Positions 4,365-24,812 of a DNA stretch of 53,740 nucleotides are shown here, one piece after another (within the stretch, counting starts at the first letter, position 1; every line of letters starts with the position of its first letter). The stretch lies in contig DASUYB010000098.1 in the NCBI GenBank assembly GCA_036377595.1, positions 1 to 53,740 of the forward strand. The letters run 5' to 3'. The position numbers and the translations under genes are program-made. Source of the DNA: Longimicrobium sp. GTDB taxonomy: Bacteria; Gemmatimonadota; Gemmatimonadetes; Longimicrobiales; Longimicrobiaceae. The notes beneath the pieces are model-generated. The model was given only the letters and a program-made list of their open reading frames with translations, did not search any database and was not told the origin of the DNA.

Positions 4365-4371
4365 AGTTCAG

Positions 4372-4397: not shown

Positions 4398-4420
4398 TTG
4401 AGTTTCCTCATCGACGCCCT

Positions 4421-7397: not shown

Positions 7398-7448
7398 CCT
7401 CGTTCCTCGACTCGTGTCCCTCTCGCCGTCGGCCTAAATCGCAGCCTT

Positions 7449-8477: not shown

Positions 8478-8612
8478 CTCTCGTGTACCGGGGGGAGTGC
8501 TGTGAGGGAGGGAAACGCGATGGGGTGTCACCGAAAACTGGCGTATCCGTTCGTGAAGCGCAATTCCCACCCGTCCCCGGGAGCGAGTTCTGAGCTTCGC
8601 GCATCTGATTGC

Positions 8613-8630
8613 CCATTCCGGCCGGAATGC
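8613..8630. repeat. Island palindrome, copy 3 (CATTCCG-GC-CGGAATG)
   Basis: Third copy of the palindrome, upstream of the ParB-A operon and on the integrase-proximal edge. Arms are perfect over seven bases. The 8478-8983 interval has no convincing gene; this palindrome and a GC-rich stretch (8640-8690) are all I see there. Confidence 0.7.
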
Positions 8631-8983
8631 AGGTCAGCCGCTGCGGCCACGGCCGCGCCCGCCCCGGCCGTCGTCGCCGCGGGCCATCTTTACCCTCAGC
8701 TCGAGGGTGGCTTTCACGACCGCGACATGCGGAGCCTTGACCATGACGGCGATCTGCTGGACATGCTTAGCACCTGCCTTTTCATGTGATTTTCGCGCGC
8801 GGAAGCCGCGGCGACGGTCTCCGGGGTATCAGTAAGCAAACTGTCGCGCCCCAGCGTCTTGCCGTCCCTGAAGGTCCGGAAGCCCGGCATAGCCCGAAAC
8901 CTCGGCGCTTGGTAGGGCATCGCTGGAGGAGCGGCGACAGTTCGCCGATCGACCCATTGCACCGCTCGCGCTGACCCGACCCG

Positions 8984-9385
8984 ATGCTCCACGCGCTCAC
9001 CCCGGCCGACCTCCCCGAGACCTGGCGCGCGCTCGCCATGCAGCAGCGCAGCCTGGGCGCCGACGCGCAGGCCCGCACCCTCGAATGGTGTGCGGACCAG
9101 CTCACCACGGCCATGCTGCAGAAGGCGGACGAGCTCCTGAGCCTGCGCCGTGCAGCCCAGGAATCCGGCTACAGCGTGGACCATCTTAGCCTCCTCTTGC
9201 GTGAAGGAAGAATCCCGAATTCCGGACGCAAGGGCAAGCCGCTGATCCGTCGCAAGGACCTCCCGAGAAAAGCGGAGAAAACGAGGGTCAAACCTTGTCT
9301 TTCGCCGCTGAGTGGGTATGTTCCGGACAGGCTCTTCCGGGACATCATCCACTCCAAATTGGGAGATGATGATGCCCAAAGCTGA
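8984..9385 (+). CDS. Excisionase-like HTH protein
   Basis: 133 aa; its end overlaps the integrase start by a few codons. The middle contains a MerR/excisionase-type helix-turn-helix: LLSLRRAAQESGYSVDHLSL followed by LLREGRIPNSGRKGKPLIRR, the pattern in which the wing reads a lysine/arginine-rich sequence. The N-terminal part is an acidic helical stretch with no family match. Overlap with a tyrosine integrase gene and position beside a tRNA fit a recombination directionality factor or an integrase regulator. No strong ribosome site precedes the ATG. Confidence 0.7.
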   Translation: MLHALTPADLPETWRALAMQQRSLGADAQARTLEWCADQLTTAMLQKADELLSLRRAAQESGYSVDHLSLLLREGRIPNSGRKGKPLIRRKDLPRKAEKTRVKPCLSPLSGYVPDRLFRDIIHSKLGDDDAQS

Positions 9386-10649
9386 GAAGAAGTGCTGGTC
9401 CGAGTCGTTCGGTATGTACGGCTCGACCATCCGCGTAGCAGAGCGGGAGCCCGGCGGGGTTCTCTACCTGCTATGGATTGACAACAAGGGTAAGCGGCAG
9501 AAGCGGAGCCTGGGTCATCGGGACCGCAAGCTCGGAAAGAAGCAGGCACTCGAGCTTGCCACCCGCATGGGCGAGATCACTCAGGGCGAGCAGCGGGAGC
9601 CCGAACCTGAGCCGCTCACGCTCCGCGAGGGAATCGCGCTCGCGTTCGATCCCGTCCGCGGGATGTACCCGACCGAGTCGAAGCACTCACGCGAATCCAG
9701 GAAGCTGGCCGAGCGCGGCGCGGAGATTCTCGGGCACGAGTTGCAGTGGGCCGAGCTCACCCCCGGGAAGATCCAGTACCTGGTCCGGGTGCTCGGGCGC
9801 CGCAGCAAGGATGGCCGCGGGGCGCGTACGGCCGAGTACATGTGCGACATGCTCTACGGCGTGGCGAGCTGGCTCCGGCAGGAGGAGTTGATCCCGGAGA
9901 CGGCCGCACTGCCGAAGCGGAACTGGAAGGTTCGCCTGAAGCAGGAATGGCAGGCGCTGACCGGGGTTCGCGTCGAGCCGAAGCGTCCCAGGCACTCCGT
10001 GGACGAGGTGGCGTTGATCTTCGCCGCGCTCCCAGCGGCGGACCCACGGCTGCGGTTGCTGGTGGAACTGGCGGCGGAACTGCGGGCGGGGCAGGCCGTG
10101 CGGGCGAAGCGAAGCGATCTGGTGCTGGACGCTGTTGGTGGGTTCGGCCTCGGTCGCTTCATCGTCCACGGGCGGGGGAAGAAGCACGGCGAGGTTGTCG
10201 ATCTCCACCCCGAGCTTCGCGCGCTCGTGGATGAGGTCCTGTCGGAGGGCTATCTCTCCGTGGCGGAGGCCGCGCTTCGCAGGAAGGAGATCGAGGACTA
10301 CTACCTCTTTCCCGCGGGGCGGCTGAAGGAAGGGAAGGCGCTGCTCGACTGGGTAACGCGCCAGCCGCTCGGTCCGACGGCGATCCGGGACATGTTCCGG
10401 GCGCTCGAAAAGGCGGCGGGTGTGGAGCACCAGGCGGGCCGGTCGTTCTACGGCCTGCGCCGGCAGGCGACGGACCTGGCGCCGGAGTTCGCGCAGGACG
10501 CCCGCGTGCTGAACCGGCTGACGGGCCACCTCGACAGCGCGACGCGTGAGCGGGTGTACCAGGACCCGCAGAACGAGATCGTCCGGGCGCGGGCGGCCAA
10601 GGCCCGGAGGGAGATGCGCCAGTACCTCGGCAAGGGGCAGGCGGCCTGA
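9372..10649 (+). CDS. Tyrosine recombinase, island integrase
   Basis: 425 aa from the third of three consecutive ATGs, six bases after GGGAG. The first part holds an Arm/SAM-like N-terminal region (GGVLYLLWIDNKGKRQKR). The C-terminal catalytic domain shows the arginine in LAAELRAGQAVRAKRSDL, the box II variant SFYGLRRQATDL (Tyr in place of the usual His of HxxR), LTGHLDSATRERVYQDP with the conserved His, and the nucleophile Tyr in RVYQDP. It ends about 90 bp from the 3' end of a tRNA-Pro gene, the classic arrangement for tRNA-targeting genomic islands. It most likely inserted the 1-10.7 kb island. Confidence 0.85.
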   Translation: MPKAEKKCWSESFGMYGSTIRVAEREPGGVLYLLWIDNKGKRQKRSLGHRDRKLGKKQALELATRMGEITQGEQREPEPEPLTLREGIALAFDPVRGMYPTESKHSRESRKLAERGAEILGHELQWAELTPGKIQYLVRVLGRRSKDGRGARTAEYMCDMLYGVASWLRQEELIPETAALPKRNWKVRLKQEWQALTGVRVEPKRPRHSVDEVALIFAALPAADPRLRLLVELAAELRAGQAVRAKRSDLVLDAVGGFGLGRFIVHGRGKKHGEVVDLHPELRALVDEVLSEGYLSVAEAALRRKEIEDYYLFPAGRLKEGKALLDWVTRQPLGPTAIRDMFRALEKAAGVEHQAGRSFYGLRRQATDLAPEFAQDARVLNRLTGHLDSATRERVYQDPQNEIVRARAAKARREMRQYLGKGQAA

Positions 10650-10696
10650 GCAAATGTAGCCCAGAATGTAGCCCACCCCCTCCTTGGATGTGAAAA

Positions 10697-10724
10697 GCCC
10701 CGGCAGCGTAACCGCTGCCGGGGC
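10697..10724 (-). terminator. Intrinsic terminator of the tRNA-Pro gene
   Basis: A perfect 12-bp stem (GCCCCGGCAGCG and its complement) with loop TAAC. Read on the minus strand it is followed by TTTTCA, so it ends transcription from the tRNA. It can also stall transcripts leaving the integrase gene. Confidence 0.85.
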
Positions 10725-10739
10725 AATCACTTAAACCAG

Positions 10740-10813
10740 TCGGGACGGCCGGATTTGAACCGGCGACCCCCTGAACCCCATTCAGGTGCGCTACCGGGCT
10801 GCGCCACGTCCCG
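10740..10813 (-). tRNA. tRNA-Pro (anticodon GGG)
   Basis: Minus-strand cloverleaf: 7-bp acceptor (CGGGACG/CGTCCCG), anticodon stem CCTGA/TCAGG with loop ATGGGGT giving anticodon GGG, and T-arm with GGTTCAAATCC. The discriminator base is A; CCA is not encoded. It reads proline codons CCC/CCU. Its 3' end faces the integrase gene, so it is the probable attachment site of the island, with the 3' part of the tRNA restored on integration. The second att copy would lie left of the window. Confidence 0.93.
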
Positions 10814-11374: not shown

Positions 11375-12745
11375 TTGACCCGGTTCTCGTTCGCCTCGGT
11401 TCGTTCCTGCACCCCGGCCAGCCGCGCCGCCCTCGTCGCGCGGGTGGCGGTGGCCGCCTCCATCGTGGGGGTCGCGCCCGCGGCGGAGGCGCAGGACCTG
11501 ATGGCGATGAACCGGGCGGGGCGCTGGGCCGAGGTGATCCCCGCGGCCGAGGTGCTCCTGCGCGACCCCGCGCTCTCCGCGGAGCGCGCGTGCGAGACCC
11601 GGGCGGAGCTGATCCACGCGGCCACCTACGCCGGGCGGGTGGAGAAGGCGCGCGAGGCCATGCGCGCCTTCGACGCCCGCTGCGCTTCCTTCCCGCAGGA
11701 CGCGTGGTTCCGCCGCGAGGTCCAGGCCCTCGCGGAGCGCCTCGGGTCCGCGCCCGCGGCCGGCATGTCGCGCACGGCGAGCGCGCCCCTCGCGGACGGG
11801 GGCGGATGGCGGGCCGGCAATGCCGCCGCGCTGGGGCTCGACACCGCCGCGCTGGCGCGGCACCGCGCGCTGTGCGAGGGCTCCGGCGCCGACGCCTGCC
11901 TGGTGGCCTTCCGCGGCCGGATCGTGCAGGAGTGGTACGGCCCGGAGTACCGCTACCCGATGCCCACCATGTCCAGCATGAAGTCGTGGACCGGGCTGCT
12001 CGCCGGGCTGCTGGTCGCGGACGGCAGGATCGGGCTGGACGACCCGGTGGCGCGCTGGCTCCCCGAGTGGCGCGCCGGCGCCGGGCGGGGCGTCACCCTC
12101 CGCCATCTCCTCACCATGACCGGCGGGCTGCGGCGGCGCTGGGGGCGGGGCCCGGGCGACGAGATGGTGGGCGGCGTCAGCGACAAGAACGCCCTCGTCC
12201 TGTCGCTGCCGCTGGAGCGCGCGCCCGGCGAGCGGTGGGAATACAGCAACGAGGGGGCGCAGCTCCTCTCGCCCCTGCTGGAGCGCGCGGCGGGGCGGCC
12301 GCTGCGGGAGTACGCCGCCGAGCGCCTCTTCGCGCCGCTGCAGATGGACTCCACCAGCCTGCGCCTGGACGGCGCCGGGCACGCCTGGACGTACGCCGAC
12401 GCGCGCACCACGCTGCGCGACTTCGCCAAGATCTGCCAGCTGGCGCTGGACGGCGGGCGCTGGAACGGCCGGCAGGTGGTGCCCGAGGCATGGATCCGCG
12501 CCTCGCTCACGCCTTCGCCGCGGAACCCGGCGTACGGCTTCCTGTGGTGGCTGGGGACGGATCCCACCGTCTACGCCACCCGCGGCTACCTGGACACCGA
12601 CTGCGAGGCCTATCCCGAATGGGGCCTGGTCGTCGCCCGCATGCAGGCCCGCCCCCGGCCCGGCGCGCAGCCGTACCGCACCCCCGGCACCACGCGCCTC
12701 CTGGCCGAGGTCGTCCGCCACCCTCTTCCCGCGCCCCGGCCATGA
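11375..12745 (+). CDS. Exported class C beta-lactamase-like serine hydrolase
   Basis: 456 aa; TTG start seven bases after GGGGAGAG. A signal peptide ends near AAEA-Q (about residue 39). Residues 40-130 form a helical Ala/Glu-rich segment. The hydrolase domain follows: SxxK nucleophile in SSMKSW (about 205), YSN motif in EYSNEG (about 290), and a C-terminal region matching the beta-lactamase/PBP-like family (family S12). These enzymes act on peptidoglycan stem peptides, beta-lactams, esters or amide-linked peptides in the periplasm. It heads the RiPP operon and overlaps the cyclase start (ATGA). A role in maturation, immunity or cell-wall remodelling is inferred. Confidence 0.8.
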   Translation: MTRFSFASVRSCTPASRAALVARVAVAASIVGVAPAAEAQDLMAMNRAGRWAEVIPAAEVLLRDPALSAERACETRAELIHAATYAGRVEKAREAMRAFDARCASFPQDAWFRREVQALAERLGSAPAAGMSRTASAPLADGGGWRAGNAAALGLDTAALARHRALCEGSGADACLVAFRGRIVQEWYGPEYRYPMPTMSSMKSWTGLLAGLLVADGRIGLDDPVARWLPEWRAGAGRGVTLRHLLTMTGGLRRRWGRGPGDEMVGGVSDKNALVLSLPLERAPGERWEYSNEGAQLLSPLLERAAGRPLREYAAERLFAPLQMDSTSLRLDGAGHAWTYADARTTLRDFAKICQLALDGGRWNGRQVVPEAWIRASLTPSPRNPAYGFLWWLGTDPTVYATRGYLDTDCEAYPEWGLVVARMQARPRPGAQPYRTPGTTRLLAEVVRHPLPAPRP

Positions 12746-13977
12746 CCGCCGCCGCACCCGCCGCGCCCCCGCTGACCCTGGCCGCGCGCGCGCTCCGCAT
12801 CGCCCGCGAGCGGCTGGCGCAGGCGATCGAGCTTCCCGACGGGAGCCTCACCTGGCACCCCGGCTACGGCGTGACCTTCGCGCCGGTGGACGACTCGGGG
12901 ATGTTCAACGGCCGCGTGGGCGACGCCTTCTTCCTGGCCGCCGTGCACGCCGCCACCGGCCGCGCCGAGATGCGCGACGCCGCGCTCCGCGCCACGGCCC
13001 CGCTCCGCGCCCGCATCCGCGCCGCGGGCGGACCCGAGGGGCTGCTGGCGGAGACCGGATACGGGCTGACGGGGACGGGCTCGATGGTCTACGCCCTGGT
13101 GCGGATGGCCGGCTTCCTGGGCGAGCCCGCGATGCTGGACGAGGCGCGCACGCTGGCCGCCGTCTTCACCCCCGACGCGATCGCGCGCGACGAGAAGCTG
13201 GAGATGTTCTGGGGGACGGCGGGGACGATCCCCGCGCTCTTCGCGCTGGCGGACGCCGACCCCGCCGGCGCGGCCGGGTGGACCGAGCGCGCTGTGTGGT
13301 GCGCCGGGCACCTGGCCGCCCATCGCCAGGCGGACCCCGAGACCGGGCTGCGCGCCTGGCCCGGCGCGCGCGGCGAGCTGGAGACCGGGTTCGCGCACGG
13401 GAGCAGCGGTGTGGCGCACGCGCTGCTCGAGGTGTTCAGGCGCACCGGCGAGCGGCGCTTCTACGACGCCGCGGTGGAAAGCTTCGCCTTCGAGCGCGCG
13501 CTCTTCCGCGAAGACGTGATGGACTGGCCCGACTCGCGGAGCGAGCCGGGGAAGATGATCGGCTCGTGGTGCCACGGCGCGCCCGGGATCGGGCTGAGCC
13601 GCCTGGCCGCGCTCGACGGGCTGCGCCCCGACGACGAGCGGGGCGTGGCGGGCGACCTCTTCCTGGCGCTGGAGAAGGCGGGGAAGCGGAAGAAGGGCGG
13701 GGTCGACAACCTCTGCTGCGGGCACTTCGGCCGCGTCGACTTCCTCCTCGAGACCGCCCGCCGGCTGGGGAACCCGTCGCTCGAGGCGCAGGCGCGCGCG
13801 CTGGCCGAGCAGCGGTTGCGGGCGACCGATCAGCGCGGCTTCCGCCTCCCCGAGCACGACACCGGGGGCGACGAGCACATGCGCACCGGGCTGTGGCAGG
13901 GCGCGCCGGGGATCGGCTACGCGCTCCTGCGGCTGGACGACCCGGCGCGCTTCCCCTGTATCCTCCTCCTGGCCTGA
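12742..13977 (+). CDS. Stand-alone lanthionine cyclase, LanM-like with CCG zinc motif
   Basis: 411 aa; the ATG overlaps the previous stop (ATGA). It corresponds to the C-terminal cyclase domain of LanM-type synthetases without the dehydratase: GFAHGSSGVAHALL (216-229), GSWCHGAPGIGLSRL (274-288) with zinc ligand C277, and NLCCGHFGRVDFLLE (323-337) with C325/C326. The CCG motif replaces the usual CHG third ligand and is known from ProcM-like promiscuous LanM cyclases. WQGAPGIGYALLRL and the CILLL ending are also typical. It would add cysteine thiols of the precursor to dehydro-residues in the cytoplasm. The dehydratases are encoded separately at the other end of the operon. Confidence 0.88.
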   Translation: MTAAAPAAPPLTLAARALRIARERLAQAIELPDGSLTWHPGYGVTFAPVDDSGMFNGRVGDAFFLAAVHAATGRAEMRDAALRATAPLRARIRAAGGPEGLLAETGYGLTGTGSMVYALVRMAGFLGEPAMLDEARTLAAVFTPDAIARDEKLEMFWGTAGTIPALFALADADPAGAAGWTERAVWCAGHLAAHRQADPETGLRAWPGARGELETGFAHGSSGVAHALLEVFRRTGERRFYDAAVESFAFERALFREDVMDWPDSRSEPGKMIGSWCHGAPGIGLSRLAALDGLRPDDERGVAGDLFLALEKAGKRKKGGVDNLCCGHFGRVDFLLETARRLGNPSLEAQARALAEQRLRATDQRGFRLPEHDTGGDEHMRTGLWQGAPGIGYALLRLDDPARFPCILLLA

Positions 13978-13988
13978 CCGGGGCGCGC

Positions 13989-15842
13989 ATGGTTCCTCCC
14001 CCCACCGGGAGCGGCGCCGCCGCCGACCCGGCGCCCGCCGAGGCGCCGGCGCTCCGCGACGCCTACGGCCAGTTCCGGCGGCTCACGCTGCTGATGCGCC
14101 CCTTCTGGCTTCCCCTGCTGCGGGGGATGGGGATGGGGGTGGTGGTGCAGCTGCTGGGGCTGGCCATGCCCTGGACCACCAAGGTGCTGGTGGACCAGGT
14201 GTACCCTTCCGGGAACGTGACGCTGCTGAACGTGGCGGTGGGCGCCGCGCTGGCCATCGGCGCCACCAGCCTGCTGCTGAACGGCGTCCAGAACTACTAC
14301 AACCTCACCGTCAACACCCGCCTCAACAACGCCGCGGGGCTCCTCTTCTTCAACCACCTGCAGCACCTTCCCATGCGCTTCTTCGAGGAGAACCGCGTGG
14401 GCGAGCTGATGAGCCGCTTCGGCGACGTACGCCGCGCGCTGCAGAGCGTGGCCCGCGTGTTCCAGACGCTCTTCCTGCAGGGGCTCTACCTCCTCCTCGT
14501 CCCCCCCTTCCTCTTCCTGCTGCACTGGAAGCTGGCGGTGGTGGCGCTGGTCAGCATCCCCCTGACCACCGCGGTGATCGCGCTGTCGGGCGGCGCCATG
14601 CGCAAGCGCTGGAAGCGCAGCGCCGAGGCCTACGCCGACCTCTCGGCCTTCCAGACCGAGGCGTTCACCCAGATCCGCACCCTCAAGTCCATGGGGCTCG
14701 AGGGGCACACCTTCGCCCGCGCCCGCGACAAGCTGACGCGGGCGATGGACGTGGAGCTGCGCGCCGGCGGGCTGGGGCAGATGGTGACCAGCACCAACGG
14801 GATCCTGGGCGCGCTGAACACGGCGCTCCTCACCTGGCTGGGGTGGCACTACATCGTCAGCGGGTCGATGACGCTGGGCGACTACATCGCCTTCACCGCC
14901 TACAGCGGCTACCTGTACGGCCCCATCAACCAGATGGTGGGCCTCTTCTCCGAGTTCCAGCAGTCGGCGGTCAACCTGGGCCGCATGTTCGAGTACCTCG
15001 ACGGCGAGCCCGAGCAGGACCCCCAGGGCGCGTACCGGGGCGAGGCCCCGCCCGCCGTGCACACCATCGCCCGGGGCGAGGTGGTGCTGGAGGACGTCGT
15101 CTTCGGCTACGCGCCGGAGAAGCGCGCGCTGGACGGGGTGAGCCTGCGGATGGCGCCGGGGACGGTCACGGCCATCGTGGGCCCCAGCGGCTCGGGGAAG
15201 ACGTCGCTGCTGCGCCTGCTCACGCGGCTGGAGCACGCCGGCGGCGGGCGGATCCTGATCGACGGCGTACCCGTCTCGCGCATCCCCCTGGCCGACCTGC
15301 GCCGCCAGGTGTCGGTGGTGTGGCAGGAGTACAGCCTGCTCTCCGGCACGGTGTGGGAGAACCTGACGCTGGGGATGGGCGCCGTGCCTCCCGAGCGGGT
15401 GTACCGCGCCTGCCGCCACGCGCAGGCCGACGACTTCATCCGCACCCTCCCCAACGGCTACCGCACCACCGTGGCCGAGGCGGGGATGAGCCTGTCGGGG
15501 GGGCAGCGGCAGCGGATCGCCATCGCGCGGGCGCTGGTGCGCGGCGCGCCCATCCTGCTGCTCGACGAGGCCACCGCCAACGTCGACATGGCCACGGAGG
15601 CGCGCATCCTGGAGACGCTGGTGCGCGAGTACCGCGACCACACCGTGGTGTTCGTCACCCACCGCATCGCCATGGCGCGCCACGCCGACCAGGTGTGCGT
15701 GCTGGAGAACGGCCGCGTGGCCGGGGTGGGGCCGCACGCGGCGCTGCTGCGCGAGTGCGAGGCGTACCAGCGCCTGCACGGCGGCCCGGTCTCCGTTCCC
15801 GCGGCGCCGGCGGCGGCGCCCCTCGCGGCGGCGGCCTCGTGA
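13989..15842 (+). CDS. ABC exporter, TMD-NBD half transporter
   Basis: 617 aa. About six transmembrane helices occupy residues 35-310 (for example the GMGMGVVVQLLGLAMPWTT and LYLLLVPPFLFLL segments), followed by an ATPase domain with GPSGSGKTS Walker A, LSGGQRQRIAIARAL signature, ILLLDEATANVD Walker B and the THR H-loop. There is no N-terminal C39 peptidase, so leader removal must be done by another enzyme, probably the S8 protease encoded downstream. It starts 11 bp after the cyclase gene and overlaps the next (GTGA). It likely exports the modified peptide as a homodimer. Confidence 0.88.
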   Translation: MVPPPTGSGAAADPAPAEAPALRDAYGQFRRLTLLMRPFWLPLLRGMGMGVVVQLLGLAMPWTTKVLVDQVYPSGNVTLLNVAVGAALAIGATSLLLNGVQNYYNLTVNTRLNNAAGLLFFNHLQHLPMRFFEENRVGELMSRFGDVRRALQSVARVFQTLFLQGLYLLLVPPFLFLLHWKLAVVALVSIPLTTAVIALSGGAMRKRWKRSAEAYADLSAFQTEAFTQIRTLKSMGLEGHTFARARDKLTRAMDVELRAGGLGQMVTSTNGILGALNTALLTWLGWHYIVSGSMTLGDYIAFTAYSGYLYGPINQMVGLFSEFQQSAVNLGRMFEYLDGEPEQDPQGAYRGEAPPAVHTIARGEVVLEDVVFGYAPEKRALDGVSLRMAPGTVTAIVGPSGSGKTSLLRLLTRLEHAGGGRILIDGVPVSRIPLADLRRQVSVVWQEYSLLSGTVWENLTLGMGAVPPERVYRACRHAQADDFIRTLPNGYRTTVAEAGMSLSGGQRQRIAIARALVRGAPILLLDEATANVDMATEARILETLVREYRDHTVVFVTHRIAMARHADQVCVLENGRVAGVGPHAALLRECEAYQRLHGGPVSVPAAPAAAPLAAAAS

Positions 15843-17707
15843 GCCCCGTCGCCCGCCCCCCGCGCGCCCCCGTCGCGCCGCGGGACCCCGCCGTGGAGGC
15901 GCGTGAGCGCTTCGCGCGCTTCGCCCCGGGCGTCCGCGCGGCGCGCCCGCCGAGCGCGGCCGAGGCGCGGATCCTGGACGCGTGCGCGGTCCCGCGCACC
16001 CTGCGCGAGCACGCCGCCGAGTGCGCGCGGGCGATTCCTCCCGCGCTGCTCGCCGGAGACGGCGGCGCCGTGCCCGCGGGGCGCGCGGCGCTGGAGGCGG
16101 CCGCCCTGGAGCGGCTCCGCCGCCTGGCCGGCGAGGGGCACCTGGTGGCCGAGGCGGAGCTCCTCGGCTGGCTGGGCGCGCGGCTCGAGGCGGGCGCCGG
16201 CTCATCTCCCGCGCCGCGCATCGGCGCGCTCTGCATCCCCACGCGCAACCGCCCCGGCACCCTCGCGCGCGGGCTGGAGAGCTGGCTCGAGCACGGCGCA
16301 CGCCACGGGCGGGAAACGGAGGTGGTGGTGCTGGACGACAGCGACTCGGCCGACGCACGCGCGGAGAACCGGCGGACGCTGCGCGCGCTGGCCGGCCGCC
16401 ATCGCCGCGCCGCCTTCGCCGCCGACCACGCGCGGCGGGGCGCGTACGCGCGCGTCCTCGCGGCCGCCGCCGGCGTGCCGGAGGAGACGGCCCGCTTCGC
16501 GCTGCTCGGCGACGCCCGCCTGGGCGCGACCTACGGCGCCACCCGCAACGCGCTCCTCCTGGACGGCGCGGGCGGGCTCTGCCTGCAGGTGGACGACGAC
16601 ACCCTGGCCACCGTCTGCCGCCCGCCCGGCGCCCGCGAGGAGCTGGCGCTCGCCCTCGCGCCCGACCCCAACGAGTACTGGTTCGCCTCCTCGTTCGACG
16701 CCGCGCTGGCGGCGGTGGAGGTGGTGGACGAGGACTTCCTGGCCGTCCACGAGCGCCTGCTGGGGAGCACGCCGGGGGAGTGCGCCGCCTCGGGGCGGAG
16801 CGGGCCCGCGCGGGTGGGCGTTCCCTGGGACGAGGCGTACCTGGCGCGGGTCTCCGAGCCGGGCGCGCGCGTGGCCGTGAGCTTCGGGGGGATCGTGGGC
16901 GACTGCGGGGGGCCGGGGCGCGCCCAGTGGCGGCTGGCGCTGCGCGGCCCCTCGCTGGAGCGCCTCGCCGCCGGCGCGGACGGGTTCGCGGCGCGGCTCC
17001 GCGCGCGGCAGCTGGTGAAGTGCACCACCCGCGCCGGCCTGGGCACGGGCGCGTACTGCATGGCGGGGAACATGGGGGTGGACCTGCGCGTCCTCCTCCC
17101 CCCGTTCGTCCCCGGCGGGATCGCCGAGGACGCGCTCTTCGGCACCCTGCGCGCGGCGCTCTTCCCCCGGCTGCTGAGCGGCTTCGTTCCTCGCGCCATC
17201 GTCCACCGTCCCCATCCTCCCCGTCCCGACCCGGCCCTCCCCGTCCCCCTGTCGACGTACGCCAACGGGGTGACCGGCGCGCTGGTGGCGGAGCATCTCG
17301 CCACCGGTCCGGCCGGCGAGGGCGCGGAGGCGCTGGGGATCCTCGGCGCGCATCTCGAGGCGCTCGGCGCGCTCGAGGCGGACGCGTTCGCCGCGCGGGT
17401 GCGGGAGGCGATGGGGCGGGCGGCGGCCGCGGCGGTGAGGCAGATGGAAACGCTGCTCGCCGCCACCCGCGGCGCGCCCCCGCATTGGCGCGCCGCCGTG
17501 GAGGAGAGCCGCCGCGAGACCGCGACGCTGCTGGAGCGCGAGGACCCGTCGGCCCCCGCCGACCTGCCGGGGAGCGACGATGCGCGGCGCGCGGCCTTCC
17601 GGCTCCTGCTGCGCGGCTACGGCCGGGTGCTGCGGAGCTGGCCGGCGCTGGTGGAGGCGGCCGCGGAGCTGCGCGGCCGCGGCGTGCGCCTGGCGGAGCC
17701 CGCGTGA
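15839..17707 (+). CDS. GT2-like glycosyltransferase-related protein
   Basis: 622 aa from a GTG in a GTGA overlap with the transporter. Residues 1-115 are helical and unassigned. From about 120 a GT-A-type nucleotide-binding fold is suggested by IGALCIPTRNRPGTLARGLE, EVVVLDDSDSADAR and LCLQVDDDTLATV, the last a DxD-like metal site. The remainder (PNEYWFASSFD, GTGAYCMAGNMG, FVPGGIAEDALFGTL) resembles an acceptor-binding part but is not one I can place. It may glycosylate the peptide or a cell-envelope acceptor; lone GT-like proteins occur in other RiPP operons. Coupling to the transporter and transglycosylase genes supports a role in the same pathway. Confidence 0.6.
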   Translation: MSPVARPPRAPVAPRDPAVEARERFARFAPGVRAARPPSAAEARILDACAVPRTLREHAAECARAIPPALLAGDGGAVPAGRAALEAAALERLRRLAGEGHLVAEAELLGWLGARLEAGAGSSPAPRIGALCIPTRNRPGTLARGLESWLEHGARHGRETEVVVLDDSDSADARAENRRTLRALAGRHRRAAFAADHARRGAYARVLAAAAGVPEETARFALLGDARLGATYGATRNALLLDGAGGLCLQVDDDTLATVCRPPGAREELALALAPDPNEYWFASSFDAALAAVEVVDEDFLAVHERLLGSTPGECAASGRSGPARVGVPWDEAYLARVSEPGARVAVSFGGIVGDCGGPGRAQWRLALRGPSLERLAAGADGFAARLRARQLVKCTTRAGLGTGAYCMAGNMGVDLRVLLPPFVPGGIAEDALFGTLRAALFPRLLSGFVPRAIVHRPHPPRPDPALPVPLSTYANGVTGALVAEHLATGPAGEGAEALGILGAHLEALGALEADAFAARVREAMGRAAAAAVRQMETLLAATRGAPPHWRAAVEESRRETATLLEREDPSAPADLPGSDDARRAAFRLLLRGYGRVLRSWPALVEAAAELRGRGVRLAEPA

Positions 17708-18579
17708 GCCGCGGCGTTCCCCCGGTCGGCCGCCTCCGCGCCGCCGATCCCGGCGTGACGGCGTACATGCGCGTCCGCGCGCGGGAGACGGGCGCGCCGC
17801 CGCCGGCGACGGAATGGACGCCGCTGGACCAGGTCTCCCCCTACCTGGCGTTCGCGGTGGTGAAGGCGGAGGACCCGCGCTTCTTCCGCCACCGCGGAAT
17901 CCACTGGCGGTCGGTGGCGGACGCGGCGTGGGGCGCGCTGCGCGGGTGGGGGGCGCGGGGGGCCAGCACCCTCACGCAGCAGCTCGCGCGCAACCTCTAC
18001 CTCTCTCCCGCCCGCAGCGTGGGGCGCAAGGCGCGCGAGGCGATCCTCGCGCTGCGGATGGAGCGGGCGCTGGACAAGGCGCGCATCCTGGAGCTGTACC
18101 TGAACGTGGTGGAGTGGGGCGACGGGACGTGGGGCGTGGCGCAGGCCGCGCGCCGCTGGATGGATCGCCGTCCGGCCGAGCTGGACGCGCACGACGCGGC
18201 GCTGCTGGCCGCCCTCCTCCCCGCGCCGCGCCGGGCGCTGGAGGGGAACAACGCCAACCGCGCCTGGTGGGTGCAGCGCTACGTCCTCTTCCAGCTCTAT
18301 CACGCCGGCCACCTGACGGCGGACGAATGGCGCGCGGGCGTGGCCCGGGCCACTTCGCTCTGCCGGCTGACCCACGCGGGGGTGGCGCTGGACGAGGCCG
18401 TGCGGAGGGTGCGCGAGGCGCTCCCCGCACCGGTGCCGGAACGGCGCGGGCTGGAGATGGGGGCGCTCCTGGCCGACGGATTCGGCGTGGACCGCCACGT
18501 CCTCTTCCACGAGACAGTGCGCACGTGGGAGCGCCTGCGCCGGCGGCCGTCCGCGCGGGTGCCCGCGCCGTCGGCCTGA
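17704..18579 (+). CDS. Peptidoglycan glycosyltransferase (GT51), no membrane anchor
   Basis: 291 aa from a GTG (GTGA overlap). The GT51 signature is intact: catalytic E56 in VKAEDPRFFRHRG (53-65), GASTLTQQLARNLYL (86-100), and RKAREAILALRMERALDKARILELYLNVVEWG with the second acidic region. This is the monofunctional transglycosylase (MtgA-like) fold that polymerises lipid II. The usual N-terminal transmembrane helix is missing; residues 1-45 are hydrophilic. GT51 genes are rare in RiPP operons. It could protect against a lipid II-binding product or build wall at the site of export. It is the last gene before the precursors, with a 244-bp gap. Confidence 0.85.
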   Translation: MSRGVPPVGRLRAADPGVTAYMRVRARETGAPPPATEWTPLDQVSPYLAFAVVKAEDPRFFRHRGIHWRSVADAAWGALRGWGARGASTLTQQLARNLYLSPARSVGRKAREAILALRMERALDKARILELYLNVVEWGDGTWGVAQAARRWMDRRPAELDAHDAALLAALLPAPRRALEGNNANRAWWVQRYVLFQLYHAGHLTADEWRAGVARATSLCRLTHAGVALDEAVRRVREALPAPVPERRGLEMGALLADGFGVDRHVLFHETVRTWERLRRRPSARVPAPSA

Positions 18580-18823
18580 GGCCGATGGAGCGCAAACCTC
18601 CATCCTGAGGCCCGCGAAGGACGCGCCTATTCGGCCTGCGTGCGCTAAGTAAAGGTGGTTTCGAACCGCAACATGTGAAGTAGACGACGGATTACGGCTG
18701 ATTGGTACAGGACGCGGTGGAGACTCCCGCGTTACCGGCGTGGGACGCGCCACTCAGGGCCGTCCCCGGCAGGGCCCGGACTTCGCCGGAGCCCCGATCA
18801 CCCACCTCCTCGGGAGGAAAGAC

Positions 18824-19096
18824 ATGCACGCGAAGCTGAACCTGAGTCTCGACGAACTGCGCATCCGTACCTTTACGCCCACCCTGGAAGAGGACGCCCC
18901 CGAGGGCGCCGTGCACGCGCTGTGCGGCGACTGCTCGAACTGCTCCGGCTGCACCGGCTGCTCGAACTGTTCGGACTGCAGCAACTGCTCGGACTGCAGC
19001 AACTGCTCGGACTGCACCGGCTGCTCGGACTGCACCAACTGCTCGAACTGCACCGAGTGCACCTCGTCGACCTGCTTCATCTTCACGCTGTACTGA
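18824..19096 (+). CDS. RiPP precursor 1, pinensin-type leader, Cys-every-third-residue core
   Basis: 90 aa; GGGAGG six bases before the ATG decides the start. The leader KLNLSLDELRIRTF (4-17) fits the (K/R)LxLx(L/I)(D/E)xLx(V/I)x(S/T)F pattern of pinensin-type lanthipeptides. From residue 34 Cys recurs at 34, 37, 40 and so on to 79 (16 Cys, period exactly 3), then C84 and a hydrophobic tail CFIFTLY. Fifteen of the sixteen period-3 Cys are followed by Ser or Thr, so every third residue could become Dha/Dhb next to a thiol. LanB/LanC-type processing is expected; no YcaO gene is seen. A metal-binding product cannot be excluded. The gap upstream (18580-18823) may contain its own promoter. Confidence 0.88.
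   Translation: MHAKLNLSLDELRIRTFTPTLEEDAPEGAVHALCGDCSNCSGCTGCSNCSDCSNCSDCSNCSDCTGCSDCTNCSNCTECTSSTCFIFTLY
18971..19042 (+). repeat. 18-bp tandem repeat inside precursor 1
   Basis: Four near-identical 18-bp units (TCGGACTGCAGCAACTGC and variants) within a longer 9-bp periodicity spanning the core (18923-19060). Each 9-bp step encodes Cys-Ser/Thr-x three times per 27 bases. Such repeats can expand or contract by slippage and change the number of Cys triads. Confidence 0.85.
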
Positions 19097-19112
19097 TCCG
19101 CCCCGGCGGGAC

Positions 19113-19143
19113 CCGGGCATGCCTCTCCGCGAGGCATGCCCGG
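19113..19143 (+). terminator. Hairpin between precursor 1 and precursor 2
   Basis: A perfect 13-bp stem (CCGGGCATGCCTC and its complement) with loop TCCGC, 16 bp after the precursor 1 stop; GC-rich flanks extend it. There is no U-run, so partial termination or mRNA 3'-end protection is more likely than full termination. It would make precursor 1 mRNA more abundant than the enzymes downstream. Confidence 0.65.
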
Positions 19144-19183
19144 TGCCCCCGCCGGCACGAACGAACCTTTTCGCCGCGGGGCG

Positions 19184-19399
19184 ATGCACGAACGGCTGAC
19201 ACTGACGCTCGAGGCGCTGCGGGTGCGGACCTTCGCCACCACGCCGGCGCCGCACGGCGAGACGGACGACGACGACTGCGGCGAGTGCACCGAGGCCACG
19301 CGCTGCACCGACTGGACGCGCTGCACCCGCTGCACCTGGCCCAGCTGCATCGCCACGGAGGACGATGGCCCCGACTGCCTTCCCGGCACCGTTGCCTGA
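19184..19399 (+). CDS. RiPP precursor 2, pinensin-type leader
   Basis: 71 aa. The leader RLTLTLEALRVRTF (4-17) matches precursor 1 position for position, including the RTF ending. The core begins after DDDD and has seven Cys with irregular spacing among Thr-rich segments (CTEATRC, CTDWTRC, CTRC, CTWPSC), giving many Thr/Ser for dehydration. It ends LPGTVA. The ribosome site (GCGGGG) is weak. Its 3' end overlaps the S8 protease start by 35 bp in another frame, so the two are probably co-translated. Same operon, same enzymes as precursor 1 is the natural inference. Confidence 0.82.
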   Translation: MHERLTLTLEALRVRTFATTPAPHGETDDDDCGECTEATRCTDWTRCTRCTWPSCIATEDDGPDCLPGTVA

Positions 19400-20288
19400 C
19401 GCGGCGGCGGCGCTCGCCCCGGCGGACCGCGGCGGCGGCCTCGCCCGCCTCTACGCGCCGCTGCCGCGCCCGCGCTGGGCGCGCGGCACCACGGGCCGCG
19501 GCGTGCGCGTGGCGGTGATCGACAGCGGGTGGGACCACGCGCTGCGCGTTCCCGGGCTGCGGCTGCGCCCCGGCGTCTCCTTCGCCGGCGGCGCGGGCGC
19601 GCCCCCGGCCGACGACGGAGACCGGATCGGGCACGGGACGGCGTGCATCTCCACCCTCTTCCGCGTGGCGCCGGAGGCAGAGATCTGCCCCGTGCGCGTG
19701 TTCGGCGACGCCTTCGACACCTCGGTGGCGGCGCTGCGCGCGGCGCTGGAGTGGGCGGTGCGCGAGCGCTTCGACGTGATCAGCCTGAGCCTGTGGACGC
19801 CGCGCGCCGACGCGCTCGTCCCCCTCTACGCCGCCTGCGAGGAGGCGCGGCGGTCCGGCGTGGTGATCGTCGCCGCCGCGCCGGACGATCCGCGGACGGA
19901 GCACGTCTATCCCGCCGTGTTCGGCAGCGTGCTGAGCGTGGGCGAGGGCCCCTTCGGCGACCCGTTCGACTATGCCTTCCGCCACGGCGCGGCGGTGGAG
20001 TGCCTGGCCGCGCCGGGCGACCACGGCGCCGTGCTCTGGCGAGGCGGGCCGCGCGACGGGATGTGGGGCTCCAGCTTCGCCGCGCCGAACGTGGCGGGGA
20101 TCGCCGCCCTGCTGTGCGAGCGCCACCCCGGCGCGGGGCTCGAGGAGGTGCGCGGCCACCTGGCGCGCCACGCCCGCCCGCTCCCCGCCGACGCGGAGGC
20201 CGTGCGCGAGACCCGCCGCGCGGCCGGGCGCACCGCGCACGACGCGGCGCGGCAACCATCTTCTTCTCCGGACCCCCGAGACGCATGA
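19365..20288 (+). CDS. S8 subtilisin-like protease, LanP-type leader peptidase candidate
   Basis: 307 aa with the Asp-His-Ser triad in order: D53 in VAVIDSGWD, H90 in GHGTACIS, S237 in WGSSFAAPNVAG. No signal peptide is obvious, so it may act in the cytoplasm or be exported unconventionally. The usual oxyanion-hole motif AAGN is changed to AAPDD (about 171-175), replacing the Asn by Asp, which may slow or specialise catalysis. Class I lanthipeptide operons often carry such LanP proteases to remove the leader; the exporter here has no peptidase, so this enzyme is the best candidate. Overlaps precursor 2 at its start and LanB at its end (ATGA). Confidence 0.85.
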   Translation: MAPTAFPAPLPDAAAALAPADRGGGLARLYAPLPRPRWARGTTGRGVRVAVIDSGWDHALRVPGLRLRPGVSFAGGAGAPPADDGDRIGHGTACISTLFRVAPEAEICPVRVFGDAFDTSVAALRAALEWAVRERFDVISLSLWTPRADALVPLYAACEEARRSGVVIVAAAPDDPRTEHVYPAVFGSVLSVGEGPFGDPFDYAFRHGAAVECLAAPGDHGAVLWRGGPRDGMWGSSFAAPNVAGIAALLCERHPGAGLEEVRGHLARHARPLPADAEAVRETRRAAGRTAHDAARQPSSSPDPRDA

Positions 20289-23146
20289 CCACGCTCGCGC
20301 CCCCGGCGCCCGAAACGCAAACCGACACCGAGCCGCTCGCCGAGGGCGGCGGCCTGTTCCCGCACTTCGTCTGCCGCCTGTCGGGGCTTCCCGTCGACGC
20401 GGTCGAGTCGCTGCGCGCGCCGCGCTGCGAGGCGCTGCTCGAGCGGCTCCGCGACGTCGAGCAGGCGCTGGCCGCGGCGCGCGAGCCGGTGTCGGCGCTC
20501 CTCTTCGAGGCGGTGCGGGCGGAGGAATCCCCGGAGACCCGCAAGCAGCTGGTGAACCTCCGCCGCGACCTCTTCAACCTCCGTCCCGCCCGCCCGGCGG
20601 CGCTGGAGGCGGCGCGAACGGCGCTTTCTCCCGACGCCCAGGCCGGGGTCGAAGCGTTCGCGGCGCGGCTGGACGAGCGCGGCCGGGTACTCGGCGAGCT
20701 GCGCGCGCGCTACGCGGAAGAGACGCGCGCCGCGCGGACCCGCTTCCGCGCGCTGCTGGGGGAGGAAGACTTCCAGAAGGGGCTCCTCCTTTCCAGCCCC
20801 GCGCTGCACACCGCGCAGGCGCGCTACCTGGAGAGCGACGCCGGCCGGCCCGGGGGGAAGGCGGAGAAGACGGAGCGCGGGCTGCTGCGCTACTTCACCC
20901 GCACGGCGATGAAGGCCACCCCGTTCGGCACCCTGTGCGCGATCGTTCCCGGCGAGGTGGTGCCGGCGGCGCCGGGCGAGCGCGGCGCGCGGCTGCGGCT
21001 GGGCGGCGACCCGCGGCGCAAGCGCAGCTCCACGCGGCTGAACAAGCAGATCTGCGGGGTGATCACGCGCTGGGTGAAGGCGAACCCCGCGCTGCGGCCC
21101 TTCCTGGAGGTCGAGCTGAACCCCACCCTCTCCGACGAGGGCGAGGAGATGGCGTTCCTGGCCGTCCACAGGGAGCGCGAGGTGTTCCAGCGCATCGAGA
21201 AGAACCCGGTGCTGGAGCTGGTGGCCGACGAGCTGGCCGCGCGCCCCCGCGTGTCGCTGAGCGAGCTGGCGCGCGCGCTGGCCGCCAGCCCCGCGGTGGA
21301 CGCCGGCGAGGACGTGGCGCTGGCCTACCTCGAGAAGCTGGCGGAGGCCGGCTTCCTCCGCTTCCGGCTGGGGATCCGCGAGCAGGACGCCGACTGGGAC
21401 CTCCCGCTCCGCGCCCTGCTCGAGCGCACGGGCGACCCCGGCGCGCTGCGGCTGGCCGCGCTCCTGGGCACGCTGCGCGAGCGGGCCGGGCGGTACGACG
21501 CGGCCGGGCCGGAGGAGCGCATCCGTCTCCTCGCCGACACCCGCGCGGAGCTGGAGGAGGCGCGCGCGGCGCTGAAGCTGCGCGGCCCCGGCTTCGCCGC
21601 GAACCTTCCCTTCCTGGAAGATTCCACCGCCGACGTCCCCGTCACCCTCGCGCGCACCCCCGAGGTGCGCGCGCTGGAGGAAACGCTGGCCGGGCTGGTG
21701 CGGCTGGCGCGCCGGGTGGCGGCCAACCGCGGCGAGCAGGCCGAGATGCGCCACTGGTTCGAGGCGCACTACGGCCCCGACGCCGCGCCGGTCCCGCTCC
21801 TGGCCTTCTTCGAGGACTTCAGCCGCGAGCACCTGAAGCCGCACGCCCTCCTCCAGCGCCGCGGCGATCCGGGCGAGCTCCCCGCGGGATACCGCCCTTC
21901 CAACCCCTTCGGCCTCCCCTTCATCGACGGGCTGCGCCGCGCCGAGCGCGCGCTGTCGGACCTGGTCTCGGCACGCTGGGCCGCCGCGCCCGGCGCCGAG
22001 GAGGTGGCGCTCTCGCGCGGAGACCTCGAGGCGGTGCTGGGCGGCGTTCCCGCGATGAGCCCCGACCCGGCCTCGGCGGCGGCGTTCGCCGAGCTGGTGG
22101 GGGCCGACGCGGGAGGAACGGCCCGGCTCATCCTCACCAAGAGCGCGTTCGGGATGGGGTTCGGGAAGTTCTTCTCCCGCTTCCTCCCGCTCTTCCCCGC
22201 GCGGGTGCAGCGCGACCTGCAGGAGGCCAACCGCGGCCCGGCCGACGGGTTCATGGCCGAGATCTGCGGCGACGGCAACCACAACGCCAACCTCCATCCC
22301 CCACTGGTGGCGCGGGAGATCAGCTATCCCACCGGCGAGAGCGGGGTGGCCGAGGAGCAGGTGCCCTCCACCGACATCGTCGTCGCCCCGCACCCGGCCG
22401 ATCCGCGCGCGCTCTGCCTGGTGCACGCCCCCACCGGCGAGCGGGTGGTGCCGGTGGACCTGGGGATCGTGAACCCCGGCTCGCGCCCGCCGCTGTACCA
22501 GCTCCTCTCGCGCTTCACCCCGCCGGTGGAGCTGTACCTGCGCCTCCCCGAGCATCCCTTCCACCTGGCGGGGATCCTCCGCGACCCCGCGCTGGAGCCC
22601 GCCGGGCCCGCCGAGCGCGCCGCGCGCGAGGCGGCGGAGCGCGAGGCGCTGGACCGCTACCTCACCTCCGTCACCCACGCCCCGCGGATCGTCTACGAGG
22701 GGTGCATCGTCCTGCGGCGGCGGCAGTGGGTGGTCCCCGCGTCGCTCCTTCCGCGGCAGGGCGCCGACGAGGCGCCGCTCGACTTCTTCCTGCGCGTGGA
22801 CCGGTGGCGGCGCGAGCACGGCATCCCGCGCGAGGTTTACGCCTCCATCCAGCCGCTTCTCGTGCTCCCGGGCGGGGGTGGGGGGATGGACGAGGTGAAC
22901 GGGCGCCCGGTGCCGCGCCGGGTGAGCCGCGCCTCGCTCAACCACCGGAAGCCGCAGTACGTCGACTTCGCCAGCCCGCTGCTGGTGGGGCTCTTCGGCC
23001 ACTTCGCGCCGGACGACGGCGACGCCTACTCGGTGCTGCTCGCGGAGCGCCTCCCCGGGGGGGATGAGCTTCCCGAGTTCGAGGGGCGGCGCTACGCGGC
23101 GGAACAGATCATCCAGGTGAACCTGTCCCATGCTCCTGGCGAGTGA
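20285..23146 (+). CDS. Lantibiotic dehydratase, N-terminal (glutamylation) part, LanB-N
   Basis: 953 aa; ATG overlaps the protease stop. Conserved LanB N-region features: LPVDAVESLR near the start, RRDLFNLRPARP (about 95-106), and FTRTAMKATPFGTLCAI (about 205-220), the family's TPFG motif. It lacks the C-terminal SpaB_C elimination domain, which is encoded separately in the next gene with a 17-bp overlap. In LanB enzymes this part transfers glutamate from Glu-tRNA to Ser/Thr of the precursor. A split dehydratase is known from pinensin-type clusters and thiopeptide systems. With the cyclase it would make lanthionine-type rings in the Ser/Thr/Cys-rich cores. Confidence 0.88.
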   Translation: MTTLAPPAPETQTDTEPLAEGGGLFPHFVCRLSGLPVDAVESLRAPRCEALLERLRDVEQALAAAREPVSALLFEAVRAEESPETRKQLVNLRRDLFNLRPARPAALEAARTALSPDAQAGVEAFAARLDERGRVLGELRARYAEETRAARTRFRALLGEEDFQKGLLLSSPALHTAQARYLESDAGRPGGKAEKTERGLLRYFTRTAMKATPFGTLCAIVPGEVVPAAPGERGARLRLGGDPRRKRSSTRLNKQICGVITRWVKANPALRPFLEVELNPTLSDEGEEMAFLAVHREREVFQRIEKNPVLELVADELAARPRVSLSELARALAASPAVDAGEDVALAYLEKLAEAGFLRFRLGIREQDADWDLPLRALLERTGDPGALRLAALLGTLRERAGRYDAAGPEERIRLLADTRAELEEARAALKLRGPGFAANLPFLEDSTADVPVTLARTPEVRALEETLAGLVRLARRVAANRGEQAEMRHWFEAHYGPDAAPVPLLAFFEDFSREHLKPHALLQRRGDPGELPAGYRPSNPFGLPFIDGLRRAERALSDLVSARWAAAPGAEEVALSRGDLEAVLGGVPAMSPDPASAAAFAELVGADAGGTARLILTKSAFGMGFGKFFSRFLPLFPARVQRDLQEANRGPADGFMAEICGDGNHNANLHPPLVAREISYPTGESGVAEEQVPSTDIVVAPHPADPRALCLVHAPTGERVVPVDLGIVNPGSRPPLYQLLSRFTPPVELYLRLPEHPFHLAGILRDPALEPAGPAERAAREAAEREALDRYLTSVTHAPRIVYEGCIVLRRRQWVVPASLLPRQGADEAPLDFFLRVDRWRREHGIPREVYASIQPLLVLPGGGGGMDEVNGRPVPRRVSRASLNHRKPQYVDFASPLLVGLFGHFAPDDGDAYSVLLAERLPGGDELPEFEGRRYAAEQIIQVNLSHAPGE

Positions 23147-24812
23147 CCCCGCGCCCCCGGCGCCGTGCGCCCTCTTCCACGCGCCGGGCCACGCGTGGCT
23201 CTCGGCGCACCTCTTCGTCCGCGGCAACGTCTACGGGCCCCCGGGCGACCGGGTGATCCTGGAGGTGGTCGACCCGTTCGTCCGCCACTGCCTGGAGCGC
23301 GGGTGGATCGCCGGCTTCTTCTTCATCCGCTACGGCGAGCTGGGGCCGCACGTGCGGCTGCGGATGTACGGCGATCCCGGCGTCCTCGCGGGCGAGGTCT
23401 CCCCCGCGCTGGAGGCGTGGCTGCAGGACGCGCCCGCGGGCCTGCTGGCGGCGCCGCGCGAGGAGCCCACGGCCGTCACCCGCCCCTCGCGGGCCGAGGC
23501 GCTCCGCTGGATCGCGTACGAGCCCGAGGTGGAGCGGTACGGCGGCGATGAGGGGATGATGCTGGCCGAGACGCTCTTCCGCGCATCGAGCGAGGCCTGC
23601 ATCGAGCTGATGCGCGGCGCCGCGCTGGCCGACCGCTCCGTGCGGCTGGGGCGGGCGCTCCCCGCGCTGGTCGTGTCCCTCGCCCTCTTCGGGGGCGACG
23701 CCAGGCGCGCGGCCGAGCTGGCCCGTCTGCATCGCGACTCGTTCGTGGGCGACCCCGAGGTCGGGGGGGACAAGGGTTATGCGGAGGTGTTCGACGCGGG
23801 GATGGCGGCGCAGGAAGCGACGGTGCGCGACCGGGTGGAGGCGTTCTGGACGGCCGCGCGCGAGGGCGTCCCCCTTCCCGCGCCGCTGGACGGCTACCTC
23901 GACGGGCTCGCGGCCCACCGCGCGCGGCTGCGCGCGGCGGTGGAGGCGGGGCGGCTGGTGCTCGGCGGGAAGAGGGTGGAGACGTGGGACGAGGCGTGCC
24001 GCGGGCTCCTTCCCAGCTACGGCCACATGACGTGCAACCGCCTGGGCGTCACCTATCGCGAGGAAGGCTTCCTGCTCCACATGATCGCCCGCGTGCTGGG
24101 CGGCGGCGAATCCCCGCGCCCCGCGGCGGTGCGCCCGGCCGGCCTTGCGCGCGTCCCCGCGGACCGGGTGGGCGATGGATACGAGCAGGTGGTGATCCGC
24201 GCGGACCTCGAGGCGCCGTACCTCGAGGCGTACCGGCGGGTGCGAGCGCTGGGGGGGATCCTGACCTCCAGCGGGGGGATCCGGGAGCTCCGCGCGGCCG
24301 CCGCGCCGGGGCGCAGCCGCACCAGCGTGCACTACACCGGGCGCGCGATCGACCTCTACATCCGCACCGGGATGCAGGGGCCGGACGACCGCTACGCGAT
24401 CGTCCGCGACGGGGGGACGGACGAGCGTCCGCTCTGGCGGGTGTACTGCGCCGGCGAGCCGCCCGACCCCGCCGACCCGCTCCACGACCCCGCGCTGGTG
24501 CGGGAGATGGAGCTGGAGTGCGCGCTCTGGCGGCCGGGGGGGATCGAGACGGTGCGGCGGCGCGGCCGGTGGATCTGCCTGACCGACCTCCTGGCCGAGG
24601 CCGGCTGGCACCGCATCCCCGCGCGCGCGGACTGGCGCGACAACTACCTGTCCGTGGAGTGGTGGCACTTCCAGCACCACGGCGGCCTGGTCGCCGGCCA
24701 CACGCGCTTCGGCGACGAGCTTCTCCGCGCCTGGCCCGCCTCGCGCGTGGCGGAGAGCGGGCTGGCGCTCGACGCCGTCTGGACCGGCCTCTCCTTCGAC
24801 CCGCCGGAGTGA
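23130..24812 (+). CDS. SpaB_C elimination domain fused to M15/VanY-like peptidase
   Basis: 560 aa. Residues 1-340 match the SpaB_C/thiopeptide-type family: AWLSAHLFVRGNVYG, then FFFIRYGELGPHVRLRMYGD (about 63-82), and SYGHMTCNRLG. They would remove glutamate to form dehydro-residues. From about 350 the sequence changes to a peptidase M15-like (D-Ala-D-Ala carboxypeptidase) domain: SVHYTGRAIDLYI with H401 and D408, and VEWWHFQHH with E510 and H513, the full zinc/catalytic set. I know of no standard LanB partner with this fusion. The M15 part could trim the peptide or act on wall precursors. It is the last gene of the operon, so it may also be read from an internal start. Confidence 0.8.
   Translation: MLLASDPAPPAPCALFHAPGHAWLSAHLFVRGNVYGPPGDRVILEVVDPFVRHCLERGWIAGFFFIRYGELGPHVRLRMYGDPGVLAGEVSPALEAWLQDAPAGLLAAPREEPTAVTRPSRAEALRWIAYEPEVERYGGDEGMMLAETLFRASSEACIELMRGAALADRSVRLGRALPALVVSLALFGGDARRAAELARLHRDSFVGDPEVGGDKGYAEVFDAGMAAQEATVRDRVEAFWTAAREGVPLPAPLDGYLDGLAAHRARLRAAVEAGRLVLGGKRVETWDEACRGLLPSYGHMTCNRLGVTYREEGFLLHMIARVLGGGESPRPAAVRPAGLARVPADRVGDGYEQVVIRADLEAPYLEAYRRVRALGGILTSSGGIRELRAAAAPGRSRTSVHYTGRAIDLYIRTGMQGPDDRYAIVRDGGTDERPLWRVYCAGEPPDPADPLHDPALVREMELECALWRPGGIETVRRRGRWICLTDLLAEAGWHRIPARADWRDNYLSVEWWHFQHHGGLVAGHTRFGDELLRAWPASRVAESGLALDAVWTGLSFDPPE

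Follow-up and report, generated by a model that had tools for sequence, protein, structure and literature searches.

The closest described systems to the locus reported here are the pinensins, class I lanthipeptides from Chitinophaga (family I 17; PMC7268733), which contain two methyllanthionine rings with Dhb located N-terminal to Cys (PMC13060382). LanC enzymes, including that of the pinensin pathway, normally place Dha N-terminal in the ring, whereas enzymes of the ProcM clade, which have a CCG zinc motif, form rings in both directions; indeed, in three of the four nostolysamide rings the Cys is N-terminal to its partner (PMC13060382). The combination of a LanB with a three-Cys (CCC) cyclase accounts for only two predicted peptides among 2785 surveyed genomes, and the same survey puts the maximum number of bridges in a lanthipeptide at seven for known and eight for predicted peptides (PMC11251773). 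Heterocycloanthracin and sonorensin (TIGR03601) likewise have Cys at each third residue behind a leader (PMC2674419), and period-3 Cys cores are thus known in RiPPs generally.

The window, i.e. the whole stretch of 53,740 nucleotides of DNA that was analysed, encodes a 90-residue precursor with a ladder-like core, P0001 (18824..19096, + strand), which has an ATG start at 18824 and a stop at 19096, and which is preceded by a Shine-Dalgarno-like GGGAGG (18812..18817, +) identified by direct reading. Its translation, MHAKLNLSLDELRIRTFTPTLEEDAPEGAVHAL-CGDCSNCSGCTGCSNCSDCSNCSDCSNCSDCTGCSDCTNCSNCTECTSSTCFIFTLY, comprises a leader (residues 1-33; LxLDELRIRTF..EGAVHAL), a period-3 core (residues 34-79, codons 18923..19060, +) and a tail that includes Cys84. 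The earlier note had described Cys at every third residue, sixteen times, within Cys-Ser/Thr-x triads of which the first is CGD, and translation of the ORF confirmed both points: sixteen Cys are located at positions 34, 37 and so on to 79 with an exact spacing of 3, and all triads after CGD conform to C[ST]x, although a seventeenth Cys (84), outside the period, has to be added as a correction. The periodicity is not attributable to chance, since the longest period-3 Cys run encountered in 100,000 shuffles of the 57-residue core was 11. The density of 17 Cys among 57 core residues was also correctly said to lie beyond that of described lanthipeptides, given the known and predicted maxima of seven and eight bridges (PMC11251773). 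No other period-3 run of at least five Cys was found in any of the six frames of the window. A bare microsatellite was ruled out as the origin of the run by the mere 65% match between its 9-bp DNA units, by the mixed Ser codons (TCG, TCC and AGC), and by relatives that have the same protein pattern with different codons and lengths; the imperfect repeat and the switching between TCN and AGC codons indicate that the pattern is maintained as a feature of the protein.

P0001 is one of ten closely spaced ORFs that share a strand (11375 to 24812), with several 4-bp overlaps and one wider gap of ~245 bp ahead of P0001 itself. The first gene encodes a beta-lactamase-fold serine hydrolase (PF00144; 11375..12745, +), presumed to belong to the operon solely on account of its 4-bp overlap with the following gene, which encodes a stand-alone LanC cyclase with the zinc motif WCHG...CCG (12742..13977, +; domain match and motif). 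Next in order are genes for an ABC exporter without a C39 peptidase domain (13989..15842, +; domain match), a GT2-like protein with a weak match to PF00535 and a VDDDT motif (15839..17707, +), and a GT51 peptidoglycan transglycosylase (PF00912; 17704..18579, +), the last of which overlaps the GT2-like gene and has a counterpart, 65% identical, adjoining ladder precursors on contig G300:C102; an immunity function is possible for this enzyme. Between P0001 and a second precursor, P0002 (19184..19399, +), is a 13-bp perfect inverted repeat with a 5-nt loop (19113..19143, +; direct reading), which probably forms a hairpin involved in mRNA processing or attenuation. The 71-residue P0002 has the same type of leader and a non-periodic core, with Ser/Thr at +4 of six of its seven Cys, and a similar precursor with a non-periodic core is present in G300:C102. 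The operon continues with an S8 subtilase (19365..20288, +, although the start may be further in), which has the D, H and S motifs VIDSG, GHGT and GSSFAAP, is 50% identical to its counterpart in the G251 cluster, and is the probable leader peptidase.

The final two genes encode a split LanB, the glutamylation half (PF04738, E 3e-42; 20288..23146, +, start approximate) being followed by the elimination half (23130..24812, +), in which residues 23-322 match PF14028 (E 1.1e-39). The elimination half retains RLR, ExERYGG and HMxxNR motifs, the role of which we take to be that of their equivalents in NisB. Its fused C-terminal domain (residues ~323-560) contains SVHYTGRAID and EWWH, corresponding to SxHxxGxAxD plus EWWH, presumably the signature associated with M15 zinc peptidases, and these motifs suggest that the domain is M15-like. 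Pfam did not recognise the domain, however, and sequence searches of the PDB with this domain and with the GT2-like protein gave no match. Their AlphaFold models were too poor for use (mean pLDDT of 37 and 52, respectively), and Foldseek searches with these poor models returned nothing below E 0.2. A stretch 64-65% identical to the M15-like domain is encoded in G300:C256, where it adjoins a LanC and is away from any LanB match.

Elsewhere in the window, positions 1-10813 include an integrase-like gene (9312-10649) beside a tRNA-Pro (10739-10813, -), at the border of a block that has genes for an HSP90-like ATPase, ParB-like proteins and an SNF2 helicase resembling ZorD/DpdE, and that is possibly a defence island. 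An IS66-like transposase ORF (37669-39111), which may represent an insertion, was seen by eye beside a TonB-receptor-like frame (35287-39138, -). A radical-SAM-like protein with a CxxxCxxC motif (42252-43229), ArsS-like by eye, is encoded ~17 kb from the cluster and is probably unrelated to it.

The distribution of the ladder was examined in the family Longimicrobiaceae (Gemmatimonadota), for which 21 genomes were searched and the loci inspected. Ladder precursors are present in three, namely the window's own genome (G000), G251 and G300. The search returned five further ladder precursors, one in G251:C30 with a run of 13 Cys and four in G300 with 8 to 11 Cys, and the leader is conserved among them; however, these leaders scored only 17.8-21.5 bits against the pinensin leader model NF038180, for which the cut-off is 24 bits. 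The suggestion that P0001 is a modified precursor with a pinensin-like leader is supported on the whole, although P0001 itself gave no match to the model. A pinensin-type precursor from the same genome scored 24.4 bits. At least 20 such pinensin-type precursors are scattered over many contigs of this genome (L010, L012, L016, L017, L018 and L336, for example), many of them with no LanB or LanC match within the flanks examined, in an arrangement that resembles the one-enzyme-many-substrates organisation of the prochlorosins.

Of the 63 triads in the six ladders, 59 have Ser/Thr directly after the Cys and the four exceptions are each the first of a run, which upholds the earlier proposal that dehydratable residues face the Cys. 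The third residue of the triad is, with few exceptions, a small one (G, N, D, S or A), and most tails close with C[FY]x(x)T, an aromatic motif, such that a polar ladder is followed by a hydrophobic end. Among the 21 genomes, the GT2-like gene is confined to the three that have ladders and is present in each of them; it was not detected in the second G300 ladder cluster, a locus truncated by contig ends. Neither the GT51 enzyme nor the M15-like domain was found in the 40 kb examined around the G251 cluster, and hence these are not a constant part of the system.

No other ladders were identified in profile searches of 395 genomes from the same phylum, 395 from Bacteroidota and 284 from Myxococcota, each set being a sample of a larger group. 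Weak profile matches in Gemmatimonadota, Bacteroidota and Myxococcota proved to be microsatellite frames or ordinary pinensin-type precursors, and scans for C[ST]x runs with a DNA pattern returned mostly microsatellites, because WS matches TG too. The only other ladder-like proteins from these scans were unrelated phage proteins. Long (CSx)n proteins of viral contigs (L169, 3751-4737, -; L145, 3803-4486, +; L167; L204) share a C-terminal WHxCxxTHCRAGW segment, those of L145 and L169 having in addition an N-terminal segment like ANGNRCSVE.FGS and that of L169 a run of 52 Cys, and apparently they are not RiPP precursors. Further CSx-repeat proteins were noted in L197, L200 and L213.

The ladder clusters are set apart by their cyclases. 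The LanC of the window is a stand-alone protein of 411 residues that matches PF05147 (E 1e-43) and no other domain. A CCG zinc motif is present in all four ladder-adjacent LanCs, as opposed to CHG in all eight pinensin-type LanCs of the family, and the two-Cys-one-His ligand set of class I is thereby replaced in each of the ladder cyclases by what would be a set of three Cys. The window's LanC is 47-62% identical to the other ladder LanCs and 28-32% identical to the CHG LanCs, whereas identity comparisons of the LanB halves revealed no split along ladder versus pinensin-type lines. In an unrooted tree, the three complete ladder LanCs are placed, with 100/100 support, among CCG domains of their own phylum and apart from the pinensin-type CHG LanCs of the family; the CCG partners are mostly full LanM proteins with DUF4135, and three of four CCG relatives scanned carry PF13575. 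Taken together, the zinc motif, identities and tree indicate that the cluster combines a pinensin-type LanB with a class II-like CCG cyclase. The window's own genome also has a CHG pinensin-type cluster (G000:C103, L336).

Two other cyclase loci were observed during this work. A stand-alone CCG LanC occurs at L391 (G243:C393; 1222-2388 and 6291-7745, -) with five double-glycine-leader precursors that end in SSSG(T/S)CCSC(S/D)SCSS, representing another kind of precursor with a CCG cyclase outside LanM. A second LanC-like protein adjoining a LanB at L323 (G300:C45; 5676-6425) has its zinc-ligand Cys missing in the alignment (GWRHG, with no CHG or CCG).

With PF04738, PF14028, PF05147, an ABC exporter and an S8 protease encoded in one operon, it is very probable that the P0001 core is thioether-modified. 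In the pathway proposed, the split LanB (20288-24812) would glutamylate core Ser/Thr and eliminate the adducts to give Dha/Dhb, to which the stand-alone CCG cyclase (12742-13977) would add Cys thiols; the subtilase would remove the leader near residues 30-33, where cleavage is predicted, and the ABC protein would export the product. That P0001 is a lanthipeptide precursor processed in this manner, enzymes and rings included, is probable as judged from sequence.

The register of the putative rings was examined via the position of Ser/Thr relative to Cys. Over the six runs, Ser/Thr is present at +4 for 68 of 69 Cys, at +1 for 65, at -2 for 60 and at -5 for 54, and in P0001 at +4 for all 17. Since a perfect lattice makes many registers look alike, the decision falls to the run ends and the non-periodic relatives. 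At the run ends the missing Ser/Thr is that of the first triad, while the last Cys has Ser/Thr at +4 in five of six runs. In P0002 and its G300 relative, which are not independent of one another, 13 of the 15 Cys are followed by Ser/Thr at +4, a value reached by none of 2000 shuffles, in contexts as varied as CTDWT, CTWPS/T, CLPGT and CQPGT. In comparison, 41 pinensin-type precursors have Ser/Thr at +4 for only 37 of 236 Cys (shuffled mean 0.19), with -1 and -5 enriched instead. The +4 rule was spotted after viewing the ladder, and the data that discriminate, i.e. the run ends and the non-periodic pair, come from few lineages. Given a modified peptide, the rings are likely to be of the Cys(i)-to-Dha/Dhb(i+4) type, with the Cys N-terminal to its partner because Ser/Thr is best kept at Cys+4, and this direction fits the ability of ProcM-clade CCG enzymes, which CHG LanCs normally do not have (PMC13060382). 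The predicted pairs would be C34-S38, C37-S41 and so on to C79-T83, with C84-T88 in the tail, so that as many as 17 (methyl)lanthionine rings would overlap, each Cys having its own partner and only Ser81 and Ser82 being left unpaired.

Rings in the usual direction, formed by the same pathway with Dha/Dhb N-terminal to Cys, would span i,i+2 or i,i+5, as the earlier note had envisaged. This direction is normal for LanC enzymes, including those of pinensins (PMC13060382), and the lattice does offer partners, with Ser/Thr at -2 for 71 and at -5 for 62 of the 96 Cys in all eight precursors. However, the corresponding value at +4 is 83 of 96 (93 of 96 for +3 or +4), and Cys34 and Cys37 of P0001 have no partners in the -2 and -5 registers. 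The non-periodic pair also fails, with Ser/Thr at -2 for seven of 15 Cys and at -5 for seven of 14, i,i+2 rings are unusual in that most surveyed bridges span at least three residues (PMC11251773), and the cyclase is of the CCG type. Rings of this kind are accordingly not favoured, and are considered unlikely.

It is improbable that part of the core carries sugars in place of rings, as in a glycocin-like peptide or glyco-lanthipeptide in which the GT2-like protein glycosylates core Cys or Ser/Thr. GT2-type S-glycosyltransferases are known in glycocins, and the gene is strictly tied to the ladder clusters, but the PF00535 match is below the cut-off (E 0.0074), the structure model is too poor to confirm the fold, and the truncated second ladder cluster of G300 has no such gene that could be found. 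Sugar transfer by this protein may, moreover, add to ring formation instead of replacing it. A metal-binding polythiol, which the earlier note had offered as its alternative and which would keep its thiols free for soft metals with little or no modification, would account for 17 Cys per 57 residues and for the CxxC spacing throughout, but it is weakened by the complete LanB/LanC set in the operon and by a cyclase type that co-varies with the core, and a Ser/Thr lattice (59 of 63 triads) would be superfluous for metal binding; this reading appears very unlikely. Finally, an azole peptide (TOMM) with Cys, Ser and Thr cyclised by a YcaO enzyme is scarcely credible, for although Cys-Xaa-Xaa repeats are seen in heterocycloanthracin, whose gene can lie at a distance from those of its enzymes (PMC2674419), and two relatives match TIGR03601 weakly (16.4 and 13.9 bits, cut-off 35), LanB and LanC are present in its stead and YcaO (PF02624) has no match anywhere in the 96% complete G000 genome, which largely refutes this reading.

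To return to the i+4 lanthipeptide, the GT51 enzyme and M15-like domain within the operon suggest a link to peptidoglycan, and the product may be an exported, cell envelope-directed peptide, although this is offered tentatively, with the GT51 perhaps acting as a spare target enzyme for self-protection. All of these elements might be joined in one reading, namely an unbroken thioether-stapled rod, possibly a fully stapled helix, with Cys(i)-to-Dha/Dhb(i+4) rings, 16 of them overlapping in series and one in the tail, made via a CxxxS/T code by a hybrid of pinensin-type LanB and LanM-derived three-Cys cyclase, directed at the envelope and tolerated by means of the GT51; as a whole, this is possible but rather unlikely. 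If the i+4 lanthipeptide reading is right, the largest ring count recorded for a single lanthipeptide would be more than doubled, the code would be readable, with each Cys paired with the Ser/Thr four residues on, and a promiscuous, bidirectional CCG cyclase would be acting as the stand-alone partner of a LanB. The same genome also encodes a CHG LanC together with precursors that lack a ladder, a natural contrast that would make the relationship between ring direction and zinc ligand set directly testable, and a repeat to which triads can be added one at a time would lend itself to the design of rigid rods that resist proteases.

In comparison with known systems, the locus has a leader resembling that of the pinensins (LxLDxLxVESF...GTV) and has in common with them the split LanB and a stand-alone LanC that is nearer to LanM domains than to other class I LanCs, and pinensin-type precursors and LanBs are abundant in the same family of genomes. 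It differs in its cyclase motif, which is CCG and not CHG, in the addition of a GT51, an M15-like domain and a GT2-like gene, and in the up to 17 rings predicted as opposed to two. As in class I systems generally, LanB and LanC are separate, but with the two LanB domains on two proteins. The CCG motif is shared with the ProcM-clade class II enzymes of prochlorosins and nostolysamides, whose Cys-N-terminal rings fit the +4 bias; there, however, cyclase and DUF4135 dehydratase form one polypeptide, as opposed to the separate 411-residue protein and split LanB found here. Heterocycloanthracin is an azole peptide made by a cyclodehydratase, with repeats of Cys-Gly-Gly or Cys-Trp-Ser instead of C[ST]x. 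The most bridged characterised lanthipeptides, geobacillin I and elgicin, have seven rings in a non-periodic arrangement (PMC11251773), in contrast to the periodic P0001, and full cyclisation involving 17 residues would be unprecedented. By the features examined, the predicted lanthipeptide system of P0001 is neither a plain pinensin system, since cyclase type and core differ, nor ProcM-like, since the dehydratase differs.
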